Origin: Shewanella sp. HN-41
GTDB taxonomy: Bacteria; Pseudomonadota; Gammaproteobacteria; Enterobacterales; Shewanellaceae
NCBI RefSeq assembly: GCF_000217915.1
Contig: NZ_AFOZ01000014.1
Coordinates: forward strand, 434,001-498,000
DNA: 64,000 nucleotides
Direction of reading: 5' to 3'
The notes beneath the pieces were generated by a model, which was not told where the DNA came from, ran no database searches, and saw only the letters and a list, made by a program, of their open reading frames with translations. This document shows, one piece after another, positions 34,779 to 57,269 of this stretch. Numbering within the stretch: position 1 is the first letter of the stretch; each line of letters begins with the position of its first letter. Made by a program: the position numbers and the translations under genes.

Positions 34779-35435
34779 ATGTTTACTGGGATTATTGAGG
34801 CCGTTGGCACGCTGCGTAAGCTTGAACGCAAGGGCGATGATATTCGTTTAACGGTCGCCAGTGGCAAACTGGATTTAAGCGATGTGCGTTTAGGCGACAG
34901 TATCGCCACCAATGGTGTGTGTTTGACTGTGGTGCAACAGTTAGCCGATGGCTATGTGGCGGATGTGTCGGCTGAAACCGTCAGTCTCACAGGCTTTGCT
35001 AACTATAAAGTGGGCACTAAGGTTAATCTTGAAAAGGCTGTTACTCCAACCACACGTTTAGGTGGCCATATGGTCAGCGGCCATGTAGACGGTATAGCAA
35101 CGGTTGAGCAGCGTCACGCCCGTGGTCAAGCTATTGAGTTTTGGTTAGCCGCGCCCGCAGAGCTTGGACGTTACATTGCCCACAAAGGGTCCATCACTAT
35201 TGATGGGGTGAGCCTGACGGTTAATGAAGTGGACGGCAGTCGATTCCGTTTGACCATAGTGCCGCATACTGCAGGGGAAACCACCTTAGTCGACCTGCAA
35301 GCGGGCGATAAGGTGAATATCGAAGTGGATTTAATCGCCCGTTATCTAGAACGCTTGATGAGTTTTGATAACAAAGACAGCAAAAGCGGGGGCGTGACCC
35401 TCGAAATGTTAGCCCGTGCTGGCTTTGTGCGTTAG
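34779..35435 (+). CDS. ribE: Riboflavin synthase alpha chain
   Basis: A 218-residue enzyme that joins two lumazine molecules to riboflavin and a pyrimidine. It has the two lumazine-binding repeats: MFTGIIEAVGTL... (first half) and GHMVSGHVDGIATV... (second half), plus the HIV-like DLIARYLERL end. Begins eight bases after the ribD stop, so it is co-transcribed with it. The gene is called ribC in E. coli. Confidence 0.95.
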   Translation: MFTGIIEAVGTLRKLERKGDDIRLTVASGKLDLSDVRLGDSIATNGVCLTVVQQLADGYVADVSAETVSLTGFANYKVGTKVNLEKAVTPTTRLGGHMVSGHVDGIATVEQRHARGQAIEFWLAAPAELGRYIAHKGSITIDGVSLTVNEVDGSRFRLTIVPHTAGETTLVDLQAGDKVNIEVDLIARYLERLMSFDNKDSKSGGVTLEMLARAGFVR

Positions 35436-35502
35436 AGCACTGGCAATCGTATTGCTAAGGTATAAAATTCCATAACAACAGCAAAATCATAAAGGTCCTA
35501 CA

Positions 35503-49768: not shown

Positions 49769-51976
49769 ATGGTCTCTGTTCGCGAAGCGCACTTTAATGA
49801 TCCCGATTTTCACTTAGAAGATTGGGTGGCCCGCTATGTCGCTCATGCCGATGAAGCTCAGATGCTGCTCACTCTGATTGGGCAGATTGATGCTTTGCCC
49901 TCCAAGAGTCCCGCTGCGAAGAGAGAACTGCTCGAACGTGCCCGCGAGATGATTGAAATCCTCGCGCCGCTGAACATGGATATCGAAACCCTGCAGGCGG
50001 CAATTCTGTTTGTGGTGTTCGATGCCGGACTCTTGACCGAAGAAGCCATCAAAGAAAAATTTGGTGAGCCGCTGGCGCGTTTAGTGGCGAGCGTCGTGAC
50101 CATGAATGCCATCGGCGCCTTGAAAATTAACCCCAATTCGCGCTCAACCGAGCCGCAAATCGACAATATCCGCCGCATGTTATTGGCGATGGTTGAAGAT
50201 GTGCGCGCAGTAGTGATTAAACTTGCCGAACGCGTGTGTTTGCTACGGGCGGTGAAAAATGCCGATGAAGAAACTCGCGTGTTGTTGGCCCGTGAAATTG
50301 CCGATATTTATGCGCCGCTGGCTAACCGTTTAGGGATTGGCCAATTGAAGTGGGAGCTGGAAGATATTTCTTTCCGCTATCTACATCCAGACACCTATAA
50401 AGACATCGCTAAGCAGTTAGACGGTAAGCGGCTGGATCGTGAAGTCTTTATCGACAAGTTTGTCAGCCAATTGCAGCAAAGGTTAGATGAAGATCATATC
50501 CGCGCTAAGGTCTACGGCCGGCCGAAACACATCTACAGTATCTGGCGCAAGATGAAGGGCAAGCACCTCAAATTCGATGAGTTGTTTGATGTGCGCGCCG
50601 TGCGTATCGTGACCGAGCGTTTGCAGGACTGTTACGGCGCCTTAGGTGTTGTACATACGCTTTGGCACCATATTCCCCGTGAATTTGACGACTATGTCGC
50701 TAACCCTAAACCTAACGGTTATCAATCGATTCATACCGTAGTGGTGGGGCCTGAGGGCAAAACCGTTGAAATTCAAATTCGTACCCAAGACATGCATGAA
50801 GATGCAGAGCTGGGTGTGGCCGCGCATTGGAAATATAAAGAAGGCAATCATTCCGGTAAGCAAAGCGGCTACGAAGAAAAAATTAACTGGCTGCGCAAAA
50901 TTCTGCAATGGCAGGAGGATGTGGTCGAAAGTGGCAACTTGGTCGAAGAAGTACGCAGCCAAGTGTTTGAAGACAGAGTCTATGTGTTCACCCCAAGCGG
51001 TGAAGTCGTTGACCTGCCACTGGGCTCAACTGTGCTCGACTTTGCCTATTACATTCACTCCCAGGTGGGGCATAAATGTATTGGTGCTAAGGTCGATGGC
51101 CGTATTGTGCCGTTCACCTATCAGGTTGAAACGGGCGAGCGTATCGAGATCATCACCTCGAAACAGCCTAATCCCAAGCGCGACTGGCTTAACCCTAACT
51201 TAGGTTATATCCGTACCTCGCGGGCGCGTTCGAAAATCCAGCATTGGTTCAAGCAACAGGACAGAGACAAGAATATTGTCGCCGGCAAAGAAATGCTTGA
51301 ATCTGAACTGGCGCGGGTGAGTCTTAAAATTAAAGACGCTGCGATTGCGGTCGAGCGCTTTAATATGGCGAGCATGGATGACTTACTGGCAGCGATTGGT
51401 GGCGGTGATGTTCGTCTGCACCAAGTGGTTAACCATATTCAAAGCCGTCTGCGGCTCGACGACGTGTCAGAAGAAGATGCCGTCGAAGAATTAGTCAAGA
51501 AAGGCCAACATAAGCCAACCTCCAGTGGCCGAGGTCAGGTTGAAGTCAACGGTGTGGGTAATTTACTTAATCATATTGCCCGTTGTTGTCAGCCAGTACC
51601 CGGAGATGAGATTTTAGGTTTTATCACTAAGGGGCGTGGCATTTCAGTGCATCGCGCCGATTGTGAACAAGTTAAAGAGCTGATGCGCCTTCATCCAGAG
51701 CGTGGTGTCGATGTGGTCTGGGGGGAAAATTACTCTGGCGGTTATCGCATGCGCCTGCGGGTATTGGCCCACGACCGTAGCGGCTTATTGCGTGACTTAA
51801 CCTCAGTGCTGGCCGCCGAAAAATCCAATGTATTGGCCATGAGTTCGTCATCGGACACTAAAAACCAGACCGCCGCGATTGAGTTGGAACTGGAGCTTTA
51901 TAACCTAGATGGTTTATCGCGGGTGTTATCTAAGTTATCCCAAGTCGATAGTGTGATTGAGGCTCGTCGACTGTAG
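49769..51976 (+). CDS. relA: GTP pyrophosphokinase RelA
   Basis: A 735-residue (p)ppGpp synthetase: inactive HD-like N-terminal domain, synthetase domain with NGYQSIHTVVVG and EIQIRTQDMHE (about residues 310-340), TGS (RVYVFTPSGEVVDLPLGSTV), zinc-finger (IARCCQPVPGDEILGF) and ACT domain at the end. It makes the stringent-response alarmone on stalled ribosomes. A strong terminator follows; mazG, which often follows relA, is absent and is replaced by the accessory island. Confidence 0.96.
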   Translation: MVSVREAHFNDPDFHLEDWVARYVAHADEAQMLLTLIGQIDALPSKSPAAKRELLERAREMIEILAPLNMDIETLQAAILFVVFDAGLLTEEAIKEKFGEPLARLVASVVTMNAIGALKINPNSRSTEPQIDNIRRMLLAMVEDVRAVVIKLAERVCLLRAVKNADEETRVLLAREIADIYAPLANRLGIGQLKWELEDISFRYLHPDTYKDIAKQLDGKRLDREVFIDKFVSQLQQRLDEDHIRAKVYGRPKHIYSIWRKMKGKHLKFDELFDVRAVRIVTERLQDCYGALGVVHTLWHHIPREFDDYVANPKPNGYQSIHTVVVGPEGKTVEIQIRTQDMHEDAELGVAAHWKYKEGNHSGKQSGYEEKINWLRKILQWQEDVVESGNLVEEVRSQVFEDRVYVFTPSGEVVDLPLGSTVLDFAYYIHSQVGHKCIGAKVDGRIVPFTYQVETGERIEIITSKQPNPKRDWLNPNLGYIRTSRARSKIQHWFKQQDRDKNIVAGKEMLESELARVSLKIKDAAIAVERFNMASMDDLLAAIGGGDVRLHQVVNHIQSRLRLDDVSEEDAVEELVKKGQHKPTSSGRGQVEVNGVGNLLNHIARCCQPVPGDEILGFITKGRGISVHRADCEQVKELMRLHPERGVDVVWGENYSGGYRMRLRVLAHDRSGLLRDLTSVLAAEKSNVLAMSSSSDTKNQTAAIELELELYNLDGLSRVLSKLSQVDSVIEARRL

Positions 51977-51995
51977 TTTTCGATTTTGCTTTCAA

Positions 51996-52030
51996 AAGGG
52001 CGGTAGGGCGTAAATCCCTACCGCTTTTTT
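51996..52030 (+). terminator. Terminator of relA
   Basis: GGGCGGTAGGG, a 7-base loop, CCCTACCGC and TTTTTT, 20 bases after the relA stop; marks the core boundary of the accessory island. Confidence 0.88.
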
Positions 52031-52052
52031 GTTTGTTTTTGGAAAAGAGCTC

Positions 52053-52072
52053 CAATGCCAATCTTAACTACC
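52053..52072 (-). repeat. Left copy of a 20-bp perfect inverted repeat flanking the island
   Basis: CAATGCCAATCTTAACTACC; its exact reverse complement lies at 56559-56578, 4.5 kb away. The pair brackets the RAYT pseudogene and the whole cassette array. It may be a REP-type dispersed repeat that the RAYT family uses. Confidence 0.75.
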
Positions 52073-52195
52073 GAACGTGCTATTTGTTAGGCTAAAAAGT
52101 AAAGGGACAAAAGCGATCAGCATTATTCGCGGGATTATCTGCAATTCGGATAAACAAAAGTCATACCGAGCGTTGAATAGTGGACATTTATTAGC

Positions 52196-53232
52196 TTAAG
52201 GATGCAACGCTTGGCTTGGCGATTTACCTTTACACCAATGTCCGCTGTGATGTTGCTCTTTGAATTCACACATCGCATCCCAACGACCACTTATGCCACT
52301 GTATTGACGGCGAAATTCTTTGGCTGAGGTCAACCAAGCATCGGGCGCAATGCCTAACTCATTAAGCAGTTTTGGCCGTTGGTTATCGATATAACCTTTT
52401 TTATCCTGGCGAATCGCTCGGCCGGTCCAATCAATCAGTTCGAGATAATCGGCAAAATGAAACGGAATGCCAGATTGCTGACTTAGATGTGTTGAACCAT
52501 CAAATTTGGCGAGAGACTTGTATGTTGTTTGCGGTAGTTTATTTGCGGATTGAGCCAGTGTGTTAAGTGAGGGAAAAGTGTCATCTTGCGGGTCTAGCGA
52601 ACTAATTCTTTCTTGAATCGATGTAAAATCAGAGGATTGCAAAGAGTCAGCAATGCCCGCTCTGATAGGATTTAAATCCACATACATCATGCATGCCAGC
52701 AAAGCTTGTTCATCCAATAATGCTTGCGACTTAAACCGACCTTCCCAGAAGGCCCCTTTACACTCATCTTCACGATTGGCCTTACGAGCAATTTCTTCAT
52801 TTAAACAGCGCATAAACCAGCTGATACTACTTAATCGTTCATGCCACTCGGCAAGTAAGCCATCGAGTAACATGACTTCAGCGTCGATTAAAAGCATCAC
52901 CATTCATATATTTAGTGGCGACTGAATGGCCCTTAGTGATTTGACGCCAGCGGCTGATAATGTCTTTTTGCGTTAACGATTTTGCCTTGTCGACGATCAA
53001 TTTTAAGCACTAAATGATAGTGATTGCTCATCACCGCATAAGCGCAAATATCAATGCAAAAAATCGCAGATAATGCCTTGATTTTATCGACAATCCAGCC
53101 ACGTCTATGCTCATAACTACGGCCCGTGAGTTTATCTTCACCACATAAAAAAGCCCTACGAACACAGCGATTTATCACATGATAGAAAGGCGTTGCATTG
53201 GCATCAATTAACTGTCTTCTGGCCGAGGTCAT
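52196..53232 (-). pseudogene. REP-associated tyrosine transposase (RAYT/TnpA-REP), two frameshifts
   Basis: Reads as three pieces in different frames. The first (53232 down, ATG with GGAG upstream) has AYAVMSNHYHLVLKIDRRQG, the HUH motif. A middle piece encodes DIISRWRQITKGHSVATKYM then NGDAFNRR. The last (52196-52903) has FWEGRFKSQALLDEQALLAC then MMYVDLNPIRAG. Together they would be one protein of about 340 residues, the Y1 REP-associated family, which moves REP palindromes. One-base shifts near 52960 and 52880 break it, so it is not functional as read. A REP-like repeat copy lies 120 bases past its end. Confidence 0.8.
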
Positions 53233-53340
53233 CACAAACTCCACACAGACAAAATCAAGATAATTTAAAGCCTAGTAGAAGGGGCTGAAAAACACAAAAA
53301 GATGTGGCTGTCCTTGCCTGTTTCCTTGCCTGTTGCCTTT

Positions 53341-53381
53341 GCTAGCAGCCGAAGGCTGCGTGCTGCCGGACCTTGTTAGAG
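53341..53381. other. attC-like site remnant after cassette gene A
   Basis: The right end has CCTTGTTAGAG beside the stop of the 53386 gene, and a GCAGCC/GGCTGC hairpin to its left, but the far-side core is missing. Read as a truncated cassette recombination site at the left edge of the array. Confidence 0.4.
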
Positions 53382-53385
53382 GCCC

Positions 53386-53865
53386 TTACTCTTTTTCCCA
53401 TGAACCAGCCTGATAATTAACTTTTAAGGTGTATGTTTCATTAACCCACCAAGATTTATTGACGTCTTTGCTAGGTTTTTGTGACTTTACTTTAAGGATT
53501 AAATTACTCGGTGGATCCTCTGTTTCTGGAAAACTTACCCACTTAATAAATTCCCAGTTATACCCTTCTGGTAATTGATAAAGTTTCTGCTCGGGATACT
53601 CACCGTTTTCTGACACGGCAATATACATTGTTGATTTTGGACAGGTGTCCGGTGAACCATCACATTCTCCGTGCTCTTGCACGCGAAAAACACGAGCAAA
53701 CATTTTTGACGATTCAGGCGTTTCAGCGAGTAAAACAAAATTTGTCAGAACGTCTTTTAGCTTTGAGTCTTTAATAACAGACAACTGCTCAGCATCAGTT
53801 AAAAATGGGACAAGTAAAAAAATAGCATTGCGCTGAATCGCATATAAGCCTCTAACGCTTAGCAC
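53386..53865 (-). CDS. Cassette gene A: hypothetical protein
   Basis: A 159-residue protein of no recognised family. The start is a GTG at 53865 inside the cassette boundary (core GTTAGAG of the neighbouring attC), so the N-terminal 10 residues may be vector-like; no better start is seen. Contains Cys-x-Gly-x5-Cys (ECDGSPDTCPK) and a basic C-terminal domain rich in Trp/Tyr. Residues 12-22 are hydrophobic (NAIFLLVPFLTDA), perhaps part of a signal. First minus-strand gene of the cassette array. Confidence 0.55.
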   Translation of the reverse strand: MLSVRGLYAIQRNAIFLLVPFLTDAEQLSVIKDSKLKDVLTNFVLLAETPESSKMFARVFRVQEHGECDGSPDTCPKSTMYIAVSENGEYPEQKLYQLPEGYNWEFIKWVSFPETEDPPSNLILKVKSQKPSKDVNKSWWVNETYTLKVNYQAGSWEKE

Positions 53866-53936
53866 ACGGGCGGAAAAACGCGTTAGCGTTTGACGTCCCA
53901 GTGGCCTCAGGCCACGAGTGTTGCGCCTTGTTATAA
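53850..53936. other. attC-like recombination site (cassette gene B)
   Basis: 87 bases with complementary ends: CTCTAACGCTTAGCACAC at the left and GCGCCTTGTTATAAG at the right, with an internal GTGGCCTCAGGCCAC palindrome. Gene B's stop codon lies in the right core. This is the attC layout of paired ends around a mid-stem. Confidence 0.7.
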
Positions 53937-54281
53937 GCCATTTGTGTTAACCCTATTACCACAATGAATGCAAACAATTGTGCCAGAAAACCAACGCCAA
54001 ACAACTTTAGACCAATCCCCACTTGATGCTGGATGTGGTGCTGCGAGGCCCTGAACAGTTAAACATTTATTGCAGTGAGGGCAACGGTTAAAAAATGCCA
54101 AGACAATATGAACAGCAACAGCACCAAGAAACGCACCGAAGATGTATACCAAATGACTCGCACTTGCTCCCGGTGGAGAGAAAAACTTACCGTAACCCAG
54201 CGCTAGAAAGAAGATGATCAGAAGAGACCACCCAATAAAAACGCTGAGTACATCGAGTTTGCCTATTAACGTTTTGAACAC
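53931..54281 (-). CDS. Cassette gene B: membrane protein with zinc-ribbon-like motif
   Basis: A 116-residue protein with two membrane segments (LSVFIGWSLLIIFFLALGYG and LVYIFGAFLGAVAVHIVLAF) and two CxxC pairs (CPHC at about residue 68, CIHC near 105) that could bind zinc. No family recognised. Start GTG 54281 with GGGAAG upstream. The stop codon sits in the core of the 53850 attC-like site and the cassette boundary lies just before the start. Confidence 0.6.
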   Translation of the reverse strand: MFKTLIGKLDVLSVFIGWSLLIIFFLALGYGKFFSPPGASASHLVYIFGAFLGAVAVHIVLAFFNRCPHCNKCLTVQGLAAPHPASSGDWSKVVWRWFSGTIVCIHCGNRVNTNGL

Positions 54282-54296
54282 CGATCTTCCCTATGG

Positions 54297-54386
54297 CTTA
54301 TAACGCTCCGTTAACGGGCGAGCGTTGTTTGCGAGTCCGTGCCAGCGTTGTTTGCTGGCGTTTTCGTTAAACGGCTTGTTATACAT
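54297..54386. other. attC-like recombination site (cassette gene C)
   Basis: 90 bases. The left end TATAACGCTCCGTTAACG aligns with the reverse complement of the right end CGTTAAACGGCTTGTTATAC, with an interior stem containing AACGC repeats. The clearest attC in the array; gene C's stop codon TAA lies in its right core. Confidence 0.78.
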
Positions 54387-54786
54387 CGTTATCTTTTGAC
54401 CAGGGCAATTGAATATACAGCAATGCATGAATCACCAAGCTTATGGGTGTTATACGCGCAATAGAGTTTAAGTCAATTTCGTTTGCGTCGAGATAATTTC
54501 CCACGACATAAGAAAGCATTAATGTAAAAGTTCCCGAAATTGAAAACCCTATCGCCCTGATGGTTTTATTGCGTTGAGAGGTTTCTAGTTGAGAATAAAC
54601 AACGACAGATACAACAATCGAAGGTATCAAAAATAACATATACAAAGGTACAAGGGCATTCGAATAATCATCTTCAAGTAGAGCATTTACAACAATGAAT
54701 ATAGCCATAGGTAAATAAACTAAGCCCAAAAATTTAGACGTAGATTTTAAATTCGAAACAAATCGTTTTTTCGTATCCTGATTCAA
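54379..54786 (-). CDS. Cassette gene C: four-TM hypothetical membrane protein
   Basis: A 135-residue protein with four membrane segments (residues about 17-35, 45-62, 75-93, 110-128). No family recognised. Start TTG 54786 has GGAG six bases upstream (ATG elsewhere is out of frame). Sits between the 54297 attC-like site and the IS110-type remnant. Confidence 0.55.
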   Translation of the reverse strand: MNQDTKKRFVSNLKSTSKFLGLVYLPMAIFIVVNALLEDDYSNALVPLYMLFLIPSIVVSVVVYSQLETSQRNKTIRAIGFSISGTFTLMLSYVVGNYLDANEIDLNSIARITPISLVIHALLYIQLPWSKDNDV

Positions 54787-54835
54787 ATGTGCTCCATGCT
54801 AAAAAGATGTATAGACATAATGACTCCCCACAAAG

Positions 54836-54921
54836 ATGCTGATCTCCAATCAATCGTGGGTTAGCTGAAAGCTAGAGCCATAATAGTTTTGTCAAAGAAA
54901 CTAAAAATTGGAGATCAGCAT
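54836..54921. repeat. 15-bp inverted repeat covering the transposase start site
   Basis: ATGCTGATCTCCAAT (54836-54850) and ATTGGAGATCAGCAT (54907-54921) are exact complements. The right arm contains the GGAG ribosome-binding site and part of the ATG, so a transcript entering from outside would fold and hide the start. Confidence 0.65.
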
Positions 54922-55152
54922 GATAAAACATAACATACTTTTCATTGGCTTAGATACTCATAAAGCATTCGTCGAGGTCGCCTACATCGAAGATGATTAT
55001 GGGGCACAAGCGGTACATTACGGCCGCGTTTCTAGTGCAAAAGCCTCCATCACTAAACTAGCAAAACAATTTCAATCCAAGTATCCAGATGCAACACTGC
55101 ACTTTGTCTACGAAGCAGGCCCTTGTGGCTATTGGATCTATCGGCTCCTCAC
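54920..55152 (+). pseudogene. IS110/IS1111-family transposase, N-terminal remnant
   Basis: Starts MIKHNILFIGLDTHKAFVEV with GGAG upstream. The N-terminal DEDD-type catalytic motifs are seen (GLDTHK; YEAGPCGYWIYR), as in IS110-family transposases. After about 77 codons, at Leu-Leu-Thr-Thr, the sequence turns into the boundary of the attC-like site at 55153; some 250-270 residues are missing. IS1111-attC elements are known to insert in cassette attC sites, which fits its place. It is the only plus-strand gene in the array. Confidence 0.78.
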
Positions 55153-55267
55153 TACCAACGCCCCGCTTAGGGGCAATAACACGTGGGTTAAAATTAGGAG
55201 CGAAGCGACTGAGCCCACGTGTTATTGTCCCAGGGTGCTTGCGACCGGCTACAGCGGTTTGTTATGC
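55153..55267. other. attC-like recombination site (cassette gene D), long form
   Basis: 115 bases. Ends TACCAACGCCCCGCTTAGG and CAGCGGTTTGTTATGC align as complements, and inside lies a further exact 14-bp stem (55174-55187 with 55214-55227). Gene D's stop lies at its right edge. Its left end abuts the transposase remnant directly. Confidence 0.68.
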
Positions 55268-55268
55268 G

Positions 55269-55808
55269 TTAGCGCCGATGGTATAAAATACCAAGCGATC
55301 CTCGAACCCAGACTTCCTTGAACTCTGAACCAACTTCGAATGTATTAAAGTGCGCTTTTGATACATCCAATTTCACCGGCTCACTTGAGTTCGGAAGTGA
55401 AACGTATACATAGTAACTCATACCGCCTTTCGTACTCTTATATGTATCAAGTTCGACAACTGTACCTGTTAGATAAACTTCATCTTGGCTACCCACAAAA
55501 GCATTAAAGAACAGAACATAGCCGCCACTAAATAGTAATAGCAAAGCTGCAACCATTGAAGTCCATGCAATACCCTTAAATTTTCCAGCTTTACGTCGAA
55601 ATTTTGGTAGCTTGTAAAAATAAACGTAGAAAGATATGCCAAAGATTGGAATAGACAAATATTTAAAGGCCCAGTGATAAGGCGCATTCAAAACTGTGTC
55701 ATATAAAAAGTTGGGGACTATGGCAACAATTGCTACAAGAATAAAAAGCCAGTCTCCATACTTTTTTAGATAAAACTCCAAGGCCTCTCCTTTGACGCAT
55801 AACTTCAA
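55269..55808 (-). CDS. Cassette gene D: hypothetical membrane protein
   Basis: Up to 179 residues; TTG 55781 with GGAGAG upstream (170 residues, LEFYLKKYGDWLFILV) is a better start than TTG 55808, which overlaps the cassette core. About four membrane segments in the first 100 residues, then a soluble beta-rich domain (EVYLTGTVVELDTYKSTKGG). No family recognised. Flanked by the attC-like sites at 55153 and 55797. Confidence 0.58.
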   Translation of the reverse strand: MKLCVKGEALEFYLKKYGDWLFILVAIVAIVPNFLYDTVLNAPYHWAFKYLSIPIFGISFYVYFYKLPKFRRKAGKFKGIAWTSMVAALLLLFSGGYVLFFNAFVGSQDEVYLTGTVVELDTYKSTKGGMSYYVYVSLPNSSEPVKLDVSKAHFNTFEVGSEFKEVWVRGSLGILYHRR

Positions 55809-55883
55809 GTTAACGGGCTGGGCGTAGCGAAGCGGAGACCAGTCCAGTGAGCAACGCGAACGGCGTTGAACGCCTTGTTATGC
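55797..55883. other. attC-like recombination site (cassette E)
   Basis: 87 bases, left core GCATAAC and right core GTTATGC (55877-55883) are exact complements; inner parts AACGGGCTGGGCGTAGCG and GTTGAACGCC also pair imperfectly. The most symmetrical site of the array. Confidence 0.75.
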
Positions 55884-55945
55884 AGTATTGAAAAAATGAA
55901 CCCGATTTCGCCTCAGAAGTAACGACTGGTTTCTCGGACTAGCGT

Positions 55946-56176
55946 TCAACACTGTAAACAGAAAAAATGGTTGTAAGGAATTACCCACGACGGCGTTGAT
56001 GTGCAGAAGCTCATAATCGCTGCGTCGAAATTGCTGAAGCCCACGGCTAAAATGTTTGGCGTATTATGAGCGGGCACCACGCTGCAATAGTGAGCTGTAA
56101 ACAACACTGAACTTGCAGCTAACACCGCTTTAAAACTCGAATTCCCCGCAAAGCTACCAACGAATAAAAACTGCAT
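55946..56176 (-). CDS. Cassette E: small hypothetical protein
   Basis: A 76-residue open frame, the only candidate gene in cassette E. The ATG at 56176 is inside the boundary core (GTTATGC) with no ribosome-binding site, and the protein (MQFLFVGSFAGNSSFKAVLA) is Cys/Ser/Ala-rich, without a known family. It may be a chance frame in a gene-less cassette. Confidence 0.3.
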   Translation of the reverse strand: MQFLFVGSFAGNSSFKAVLAASSVLFTAHYCSVVPAHNTPNILAVGFSNFDAAIMSFCTSTPSWVIPYNHFFCLQC

Positions 56177-56215
56177 AACATTTTATTAGTGCGCATGCGC
56201 GTTTACCTTGTTGGA
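56173..56215. other. Cassette boundary / possible short attC or attI-like site
   Basis: GCATAAC core at 56173-56179 and TTGTTGGAC near 56207-56215, with the palindromic GCGCATGCGC between. Only 43 bases, shorter than usual for attC, so it may be a truncated site or the array's right end. Confidence 0.4.
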
Positions 56216-56287
56216 CCAGTGAAAACGCGCACAGTTAACTAGCTGTATGCAAAGAACTTATCAGCTTTCTATCAAATACACCACTTG

Positions 56288-56311
56288 GGAAAACGCGCAT
56301 GCGCGTTTTCC
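56288..56311. repeat. 24-bp perfect palindrome (GGAAAACGCGCA and complement)
   Basis: Half-site GGAAAACGCGCA followed directly by its complement. Related half-sites lie at 56189-56202, 56221-56230 and 56381-56391. Confidence 0.65.
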
Positions 56312-56558
56312 AAACCTATTAACTAATTTGGTTAAACCATATGTAGTTGATTTTAAATGGTTTTGATAATTTCAGATTGGAAAAACGCGCAAAATAATGG
56401 GTTTAAAACGCGAAAAGCTACTTAAATTTGAATATGACTGTATACCCATGGCTCTTCTCTGAACTGTTAGAGCAAGTAGTTCGTCAATTTTCGATTCACT
56501 AAATAAATGCTAGCAAGCTTTGGGGCAATAGCTTTTTAGCTGAATGAACAGCCAGAGG

Positions 56559-56578
56559 GGTAGTTAAGATTGGCATTG
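56559..56578 (+). repeat. Right copy of the 20-bp inverted repeat flanking the island
   Basis: GGTAGTTAAGATTGGCATTG, exact reverse complement of 52053-52072. Confidence 0.75.
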
Positions 56579-56583
56579 TTGCA

Positions 56584-56665
56584 CCAGTGACCTTCTAAAA
56601 CATGGGTGTTTTAGTAGAGCCCTCAGGGACGCTTCTTGTTAAATAAAGGGGCGGCGTGTCACTGG
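56584..56665. repeat. MITE-like element with terminal inverted repeats
   Basis: CCAGTGAC (56584-56591) and GTCACTGG (56658-56665) flank a 66-base core including AAAACATGGGTGTTTTAG. A non-autonomous repeat is likely; its sequence suggests a dispersed family. Confidence 0.45.
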
Positions 56666-56756
56666 GGAAGTAATGTCAATTAATGCGTAATGCGCGTAGC
56701 TCAACTGTCTTACTTTGGGGCAATTGCGTTTCAGAGGGTCCTTTATATTCAGAAAA

Positions 56757-57269
56757 TTAGCTGTAATACACTTCGGCCTGGTTATTACGCTGCCGCTCTT
56801 CATTTTTCTCGCTGGCTTCTTTAATCAGTTCTACTTTTTGAGCCTGAAGCAATGCGATTTGCTTGGTTTTTTCTTCCTCGGATAAAGTGTTATCGGCGGC
56901 GATTTTGGCCATTTCCTCTTCGAGTTGTTTCAGTTTTTCCCTATCCACGCCTGTGCGTTTATCGAGAATTGCCTGCATCGCTTCTTCTAGTCTATTGGTT
57001 GGTTTTTCTGGTTCAGAGGTTCCAGCAATGGCTTGTACATTCTCCGTATAGCCTTGTTTGGCATTGGGCGCGAGGTGACTATAGGTATCGGCTGTTGCAA
57101 CAGGCGCAGTAGAAGAGAGCGTGACTGAATCTTGGCTTGCCGCTGAACCCGATGTGGTCATTGAAGATGAATTATTGGCTTGGCTACTCTGGCTCGATTT
57201 GAGTTGTGTGAGTGCCACATTGGCATAGTTCTTAGCAATGGTATAGCTATTGGGGTTGATGGTGCTCAT
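56757..57269 (-). CDS. Hypothetical coiled-coil protein
   Basis: A 170-residue hydrophilic protein: a Ser/Thr/Gln-rich N-terminal half (ALTQLKSSQSSQANNSSS) and a C-terminal helical half with heptads (REKLKQLEEEMAKIAADNTL then SEEEKTKQIALLQAQKVELI). No signal or membrane segment. The QDSVTLSSTA segment resembles a motif of flagella-associated regulators (FlgM-like) but too weakly to assign. Not part of the island's cassette pattern; codon use looks like the host. Confidence 0.65.
   Translation of the reverse strand: MSTINPNSYTIAKNYANVALTQLKSSQSSQANNSSSMTTSGSAASQDSVTLSSTAPVATADTYSHLAPNAKQGYTENVQAIAGTSEPEKPTNRLEEAMQAILDKRTGVDREKLKQLEEEMAKIAADNTLSEEEKTKQIALLQAQKVELIKEASEKNEERQRNNQAEVYYS

Follow-up and report, generated by a model that had tools for sequence, protein, structure and literature searches.

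The sequence analysed here, referred to as the window, is a stretch of 64,000 nt from Shewanella sp. HN-41 (contig NZ_AFOZ01000014.1, positions 434,001-498,000, equivalent to C34:434001-498000; C, G and L numbers are our handles for contigs, genomes and loci). It contains a gene-cassette array that, judged from sequence, is an integron platform lacking the integrase gene intI, since the array abuts an attI site; the platform consists of attI, four cassettes and a truncated fifth. The common picture of an integron is a single integrase with a single attI and a single array. The attI of the window belongs to a family of copies found across the genus, and a gene-capture system thus appears to be spread over the genome and not confined to one locus. 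We consider it likely that these copies form a distributed integron, in which many inherited attI platforms without intI are loaded by an integrase acting in trans. The integrase (IntI) would be made elsewhere in the cell, encoded on the chromosome or by a plasmid or phage present only for a time, and would insert and remove cassettes at the platforms without intI, so that the integron would function through docking sites dispersed next to various host loci. Slightly better than even, in our judgement, are the chances of a fuller version, namely a network of inherited docking sites without intI at many chromosomal loci, on plasmids and in a prophage, which selection on attI would maintain and which one SOS-controlled integrase, in many cases transient, would serve in trans; captured genes would then land beside many different host loci and not in a single array.

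The attI core of the window matches the site quoted in the available text of PMC9892861 at 28 of 28 nt, and its crossover point, G|TT, adjoins the first cassette. An earlier, sequence-only reading of this DNA had described a cluster of attC sites lacking an integrase (CALIN). There are indeed several attC sites and no nearby integrase, but the array is not an orphan cluster, since it abuts attI, a site that the earlier reading had passed over. The four attC-like sites proposed near 53850, 54297, 55153 and 55797 were all recovered by a covariance model trained on 18 other sites (none from the window, 17 from the regions of other genomes and one from another copy in the HN-41 genome), and the lengths of 87-115 bases proposed for them agree with the 87, 87, 115 and 87 nt measured. 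With this check run, neither of the outcomes named in advance as refuting, an absence of model hits and repeats found only as repetitive extragenic palindromic (REP) elements, was seen. As oriented from attI, all four sites lie on the minus strand. Five hits were obtained with the model across the 64 kb, four of them being these sites; the fifth (35366-35437, plus strand, 19.1 bits) stands alone and is distant from the array. A simpler attC detector, with thresholds set from eight plasmid sites (seven reach an L-box score of 7 and one scores 5), found three of the four at a score of at least 7. Relaxation to a score of 5 recovered the 53850 site together with 55317-55395 and 51795-51889, which are probably false calls. 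The core boxes of the window sites are TATAAC-like and not RYYYAAC, and hence were missed by a strict regular-expression scan. Rfam gave nothing above the gathering score between 51800 and 58000.

The statement that the 64 kb contains no tyrosine integrase also stands, as none of the ten PF00589 matches in the genome lies inside the window. The whole-genome search for IntI that had been proposed found one IntI-like gene, on another contig and with a broken reading frame (C32:84890-85829), and this is the only match in the HN-41 genome at E≤1e-30. It is preceded by the same attI stretch, and a 220-aa part of it is 61.8 % identical to plasmid IntI2. On the right of the window attI, the first 3 kb show no trace of IntI.

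Matches to attI were sought in 97 Shewanella genomes at E≤1e-3, and 322 were found in 68 genomes, including 14 in the HN-41 genome and never more than 14 per genome, a tally that takes in partial and split matches and draft genomes. From these matches, 60 regions in 13 other genomes were drawn. All except L133 and L161 complied with the alignment rule for copies (start no more than 12 nt from the core and length at least 90 nt), and the remaining 58 together with the 14 from HN-41 make up the 72 copies studied. Many of the HN-41 repeat copies begin at the same attI core. The published 28 nt sequence is present exactly in 26 of the 72, with one change in 23 and with two changes in 11. At the junction, the core reads GTT in 63 and GTTA in 50, and the copies are conserved up to this core and diverge beyond it. 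The known chemistry of IntI, in which the bottom strand of attC recombines with double-stranded attI, would explain such junctions.

In the 60 regions, the covariance model gave 89 attC hits, 87 of them in loci with a defined attI (the other two are in L161 and are excluded). All 87 share the side and the strand of the cassettes, and the 187 kb (out of 535 kb) opposite the cassettes gave none; the training sites had been taken from the cassette side only, and about 70 of the 87 hits fall outside the training set. One or more hits were obtained in 46 of the 58 fetched copies and in 31 of the 43 loci that gave no training site. In the HN-41 genome, 11 of the 14 copies have an oriented attC in a tally made by eye, those without being two in L052 and one in L061. 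The density of hits with the simpler detector was 0.51 per kb to the left of attI, 0.14 to the right and 0.10 in positions 1-50000 of the window, and it found attC in 50 of the 72 copies compared with 18 of 72 in the control. Its hits were divided about equally between the strands (111 and 103), as would be the case for near-palindromes.

On the far side of the array, 26 of the 72 copies share a left end (LE) of about 190 bp that finishes in TTTCTATGG(n)TAAC, and in many copies the stretch after it looks attC-like by eye. As LE recurs, and is also present in the intI-bearing platforms L356 (G015) and L357 (G073), the platform unit can be read as LE, cassettes, attI, block B and tail in the fuller members, with intI behind attI in a minority. 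A second attI subtype, with CTTAGTATTTATGCGCTG beside the core, was seen in L132, L134, L162, L165, L260 and L285. In the single-contig genomes, attI seemed among the matches listed to be placed mostly with its cassettes along the replication fork, though this is an impression and not a count.

Nine groups, comprising 24 of the 72 copies, have the right host flank in common between species, and seven of these also have the left (links via IntI or transposase genes were set aside in the grouping). The distance from attI to the left host gene varies, as in L054, L127, L131 and L141 (4.2, 1.96, 1.94 and 2.6 kb, respectively). Cassette DNA of at least 150 bp that is similar near attI was found within groups only for L111/L143 and L118/L128. 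The most clear-cut pair is L118 (G015) and L128 (G024), which are 96.2 % identical over 5.2 kb up to positions -679/-770 and 99.4 % identical from -4, and between the two core sites there is by eye one single cassette in one case and two unrelated cassettes in the other. As aligned, the pair is a single platform without intI, and the main difference is an exchange of cassettes whose limits fall exactly at two core sites. Neither L118 nor L128 has an IntI trace beside it; the close IntI match of G015 (98 %, from residue 24) lies at a distance of about 1.1 Mb, assuming a circular replicon and taking the shorter way round. The first cassette of L118, about 0.7 kb to the left of attI, has an attC that looks to us like the Vibrio cholerae repeat, suggesting an origin in a Vibrio superintegron.

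Alternatively, platforms could be spread ready loaded by active transposition of a miniature transposon that bears an integron, and differences in cassettes would then reflect transposition and not insertion at each site. LE and attI ends do both recur at non-orthologous loci, and the same inserts are found at the attI core of several platforms: one of 327 bp in L108, L111, L112, L113, L143 and L145 (four G013 and two G051 copies) and one of 2378 bp in L135, L150-L152 and L160 (three from G061, one from G036 and one from G083). A 1317-bp IS110-like insert is also at the core in L120 and L167. These recurrent inserts may be core-targeting elements or travelling cassettes. However, loci shared between species mostly carry different cassettes, which is not expected from transposition. 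In the single filled and empty locus compared, 2.27 kb in the HN-41 genome corresponds to 30 bp in L293, from a relative that lacks attI (a search of L293 for attI variants also gave nothing), and neither a transposase nor a terminal repeat accompanied by target duplication could be recognised there; repeats at both edges blur the ends of the insert. We regard transposition of loaded platforms as a doubtful account of the whole, though it may hold for the spreading step alongside loading of scattered attI sites in trans.

The supply of integrase was examined with the Shewanella xiamenensis plasmid integrase as query (E≤1e-30), and 63 of the 97 genomes have a match; we take the matches that are 91-98 % identical to the query to be of the SonIntI type. 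No IntI match was obtained for 16 of the 31 genomes that have four or more attI matches, and the same is true of nine of the 18 with at least eight; G094 has 13 attI matches and G002 has five, both with no IntI match. Within 3 kb to the right of attI (the right flank is shorter than this in L016, L056 and L060), an IntI trace was found in four of the 72 copies. It is full length in L112 and L152, in two frames in L016 (the HN-41 copy) and a fragment of 39 residues in L159. We take the IntI behind attI in this minority of platforms to be of the SonIntI type. All four copies have CTGT-N8-ACAG, which we take to be a LexA box, ahead of intI. Many of the copies without intI carry CTGTATACCCATACAT or a similar sequence instead and some have neither; the CTGTATACCCAT in block B of the window resembles the box. 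Homology to block B of the window is present in 41 of the 72 copies, none with an IntI trace, and the other 31 include all four that have one (Fisher p 0.03, with copies that are not independent), and this distribution suggests that there is one lineage without intI. Between the members of 14 orthologous pairs, identity is 85-100 % in block A and 54-98 % in block B, with block A the better conserved in 12. This would be weak evidence for selection on attI, because the pairs overlap and some compare different types of block B.

These data also bear on whether the scattered copies are a graveyard, that is, many complete integrons that each lost intI independently, leaving attI and cassettes as decaying remnants with no further exchange. 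The broken frame of the IntI-like gene in HN-41, the 39-residue fragment in L159, the altered CTGTATA box in copies without intI and the truncated outer end of the window array are all consistent with decay. However, none of the 41 block B copies but four of the other 31 having an IntI trace points to a single lineage without intI, block A is better kept than block B in 12 of the 14 pairs (some of which differ in block B type), and cassettes next to attI have been exchanged between close relatives (L118/L128). We consider independent loss unlikely. Insertion of cassettes by IntI into an ordinary intergenic repeat that holds GTT by chance (attG), with no functional attI, is very improbable, for although such insertion is described in the available text of PMC12901181 and the copies form a repeat family with a REP-like tail, the repeat is of a known attI type and is the attI preceding intI, with the canonical crossover, in L016, L112 and L152, and all 87 attC hits are oriented one way.

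Several observations weigh against a distributed integron loaded in trans, a mode of loading that we infer from the exchange seen at platforms without intI. The only close IntI relative in the HN-41 genome has a broken frame. The exchange between L118 and L128 could date from long ago or have been carried out by an integrase since lost, as the IntI genes of G024 are all distant (46 % and 41 %) and that of G015 matches from residue 24 onwards. The orthologous pair L111/L143 carries an identical 327-bp insert. No attC hit was obtained in 12 of the 58 fetched copies and 3 of the 14 from HN-41, and the number of attI matches is swelled by partial and split matches and includes drafts. An empty platform, with LE joined directly to attI, was not found with one strict pattern in the loci searched. 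The window copy lacks LE and has a rearranged right flank, and a sigma-70 scan at its attI revealed no above-chance promoter directed into the cassettes, the single promoter-like site being on the opposite strand and not above chance.

The attI type is also present outside Shewanella chromosomes. A scan of species genomes for the exact attI pattern found 37 stretches, 31 of them in Shewanella and six in Vibrio, Pseudoalteromonas, Planctobacterium and an uncultured Enterovibrio; one viral contig also has it. Among plasmid records, 20 match attI, eight over at least 80 % of the query, and the type is found on plasmids of Enterobacter, Citrobacter, Escherichia coli and Moellerella, as well as in the already described prophage M16-3 (two records). 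On an E. coli IncC plasmid, fosG (L349 4501-5270) is directly at attI, which has one mismatch in 28, with an attC of 70.8 bits behind it. Likewise, on a Moellerella plasmid, dfrA1 (L351 4421-5151) is directly at an attI with no mismatch in 28, with an attC of 32.1 bits behind. In these two plasmid loci, the ones examined, no IntI match lies within 5 kb. The pattern has 39 matches in named and viral contigs, several with short right flanks; there is an IntI trace to the right in five (L315, L327, L330, L338 and L340), one of full length, and the simpler detector found attC to the left in 25. Gene sets with site-specific integrases adjoin attI in L349 (5472-10270) and lie within about 7 kb of it in L077 (1-4919). 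They resemble strand-biased circularising integrative elements, and they are possible carriers of platforms.

In PMC9229058, 59 Shewanella genomes are reported to have CALINs and 41 to have single orphan cassettes, of which there are 115. That survey, like ours, concerns cassettes without a neighbouring intI that are frequent in the genus, with IS110 and IS91 in the arrays, and it also covers single attC sites lacking an integrase (SALIN). However, attI is not mentioned in its available text, where the mechanism of integron insertion and deletion is called unknown, whereas the present arrays were found through attI and 26 of 72 have a common LE. The CALIN of prophage M16-3 (PMC9892861, the available part of which cites Drouin 2002) is closer, as the same attI (28 of 28 nt) heads an array without intI, beside a complete integron. 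It is described there as one prophage instance, whereas here there is a genome- and genus-wide family, partly at conserved host loci. The SonIntI-type chromosomal integron of Shewanella oneidensis is alike in its attI and in the IntI matches that we assign to its type, but 68 of the 72 platforms studied here have no IntI trace. The class 2 integron shares the core AATAAAATGTT in attI2 (consensus in the available text of PMC12901181), but the present platforms are chromosomal, scattered and mostly without intI. A literature search, with subscription papers mostly outside its scope, found no description of scattered attI platforms. What was known earlier in the sources available thus seems to be one attI-headed CALIN in a prophage, and the scattered family would be wider than that. 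That attI forms a scattered family could account for the unusually large number of orphan cassettes in reports on Shewanella and, if loading in trans is correct, orphan arrays would be dormant integrons that can be used again by an incoming integrase of the right type.

Table. Features of the window array and adjoining sequences
Feature	Position	Strand	Details
Inverted partial copy of tail repeat	52053-52114		From genome repeat search
Partial attC, one half only	~53341-53381	minus	Truncated outer end of array; from sequence
Cassette open reading frame (ORF)	53386-53865	minus	159 aa; no family; its own attC is the partial site
attC site	53850-53936	minus	87 nt; covariance model 25.6 bits, E 9.7e-4; simpler detector at score 5 only
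Cassette ORF	53931-54281	minus	116 aa; no family above cut-off
attC site	54298-54384	minus	87 nt; covariance model 42.5 bits, E 1.4e-7; also simpler detector
Cassette ORF	54379-54786	minus	135 aa; hydrophobic stretches by eye; no family above cut-off
IS110-type transposase gene, truncated	54804-55154	plus	Left end and start; same cassette as 135-aa ORF
attC site	55153-55267	minus	115 nt; covariance model 18.1 bits, E 0.049; also simpler detector
Cassette ORF	55269-55808	minus	At most 179 aa, start codon uncertain; hydrophobic stretches by eye; no family above cut-off
attC site	55797-55883	minus	87 nt; covariance model 19.9 bits, E 0.02; also simpler detector
First-cassette ORF	55946-56176	minus	76 aa; no family
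attI core, Shewanella type	56177-56204	minus	28 nt, AAACGCGCATGCGCACTAATAAAATGTT on minus strand; from sequence and published site
attI block A	56176-56323	minus	Conserved among scattered copies
Block B	56324-56449	minus	Contains CTGTATACCCAT at 56438-56449
Tail repeat adjoining attI	56517-56724	plus	Present elsewhere in genome; REP-like

The cassette genes had been described as belonging to no known family, and this holds, as none of the five proteins has a match above the cut-off in Pfam or NCBIfam and none has one in PADLOC. The IS110-type fragment scores 35.3 bits, below the cut-off of 140, and is 98 % identical to C8:59714-60061. The idea that it was cut exactly at the IntI crossover was rejected, as homology to the C8 copy ends at 55154, a few bases short. 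The IS110 start in L063 (C8:59.6-60.4 kb) is nearly identical to that of the window and has an attC-like site, a short match to LE and the tail repeat close by, so that L063 is perhaps another damaged platform.

Between relA and the array, at 52196-53244, there is a gene for a REP-associated tyrosine transposase in two frames, and a single 341-aa open frame of this kind is downstream of relA in G036 and G002. A plain CALIN beside a REP transposase had been entertained for the window and was abandoned when attI was recognised. In G013 and G070, mazG follows relA, and in several other genomes it does so after an insert. The mazG of HN-41 is elsewhere, on contig C12, and the window has therefore probably lost its original right flank; no attI was found beside that mazG. 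The gene at 56757 is about 64 kb from relA in G083 and 100 kb from it in G036. Because of these distances and the position of mazG on C12, the window locus is, on comparison with relatives, a rearrangement point. The relA-mazG interval (window 51976-56757) carries varied insertions in relatives.

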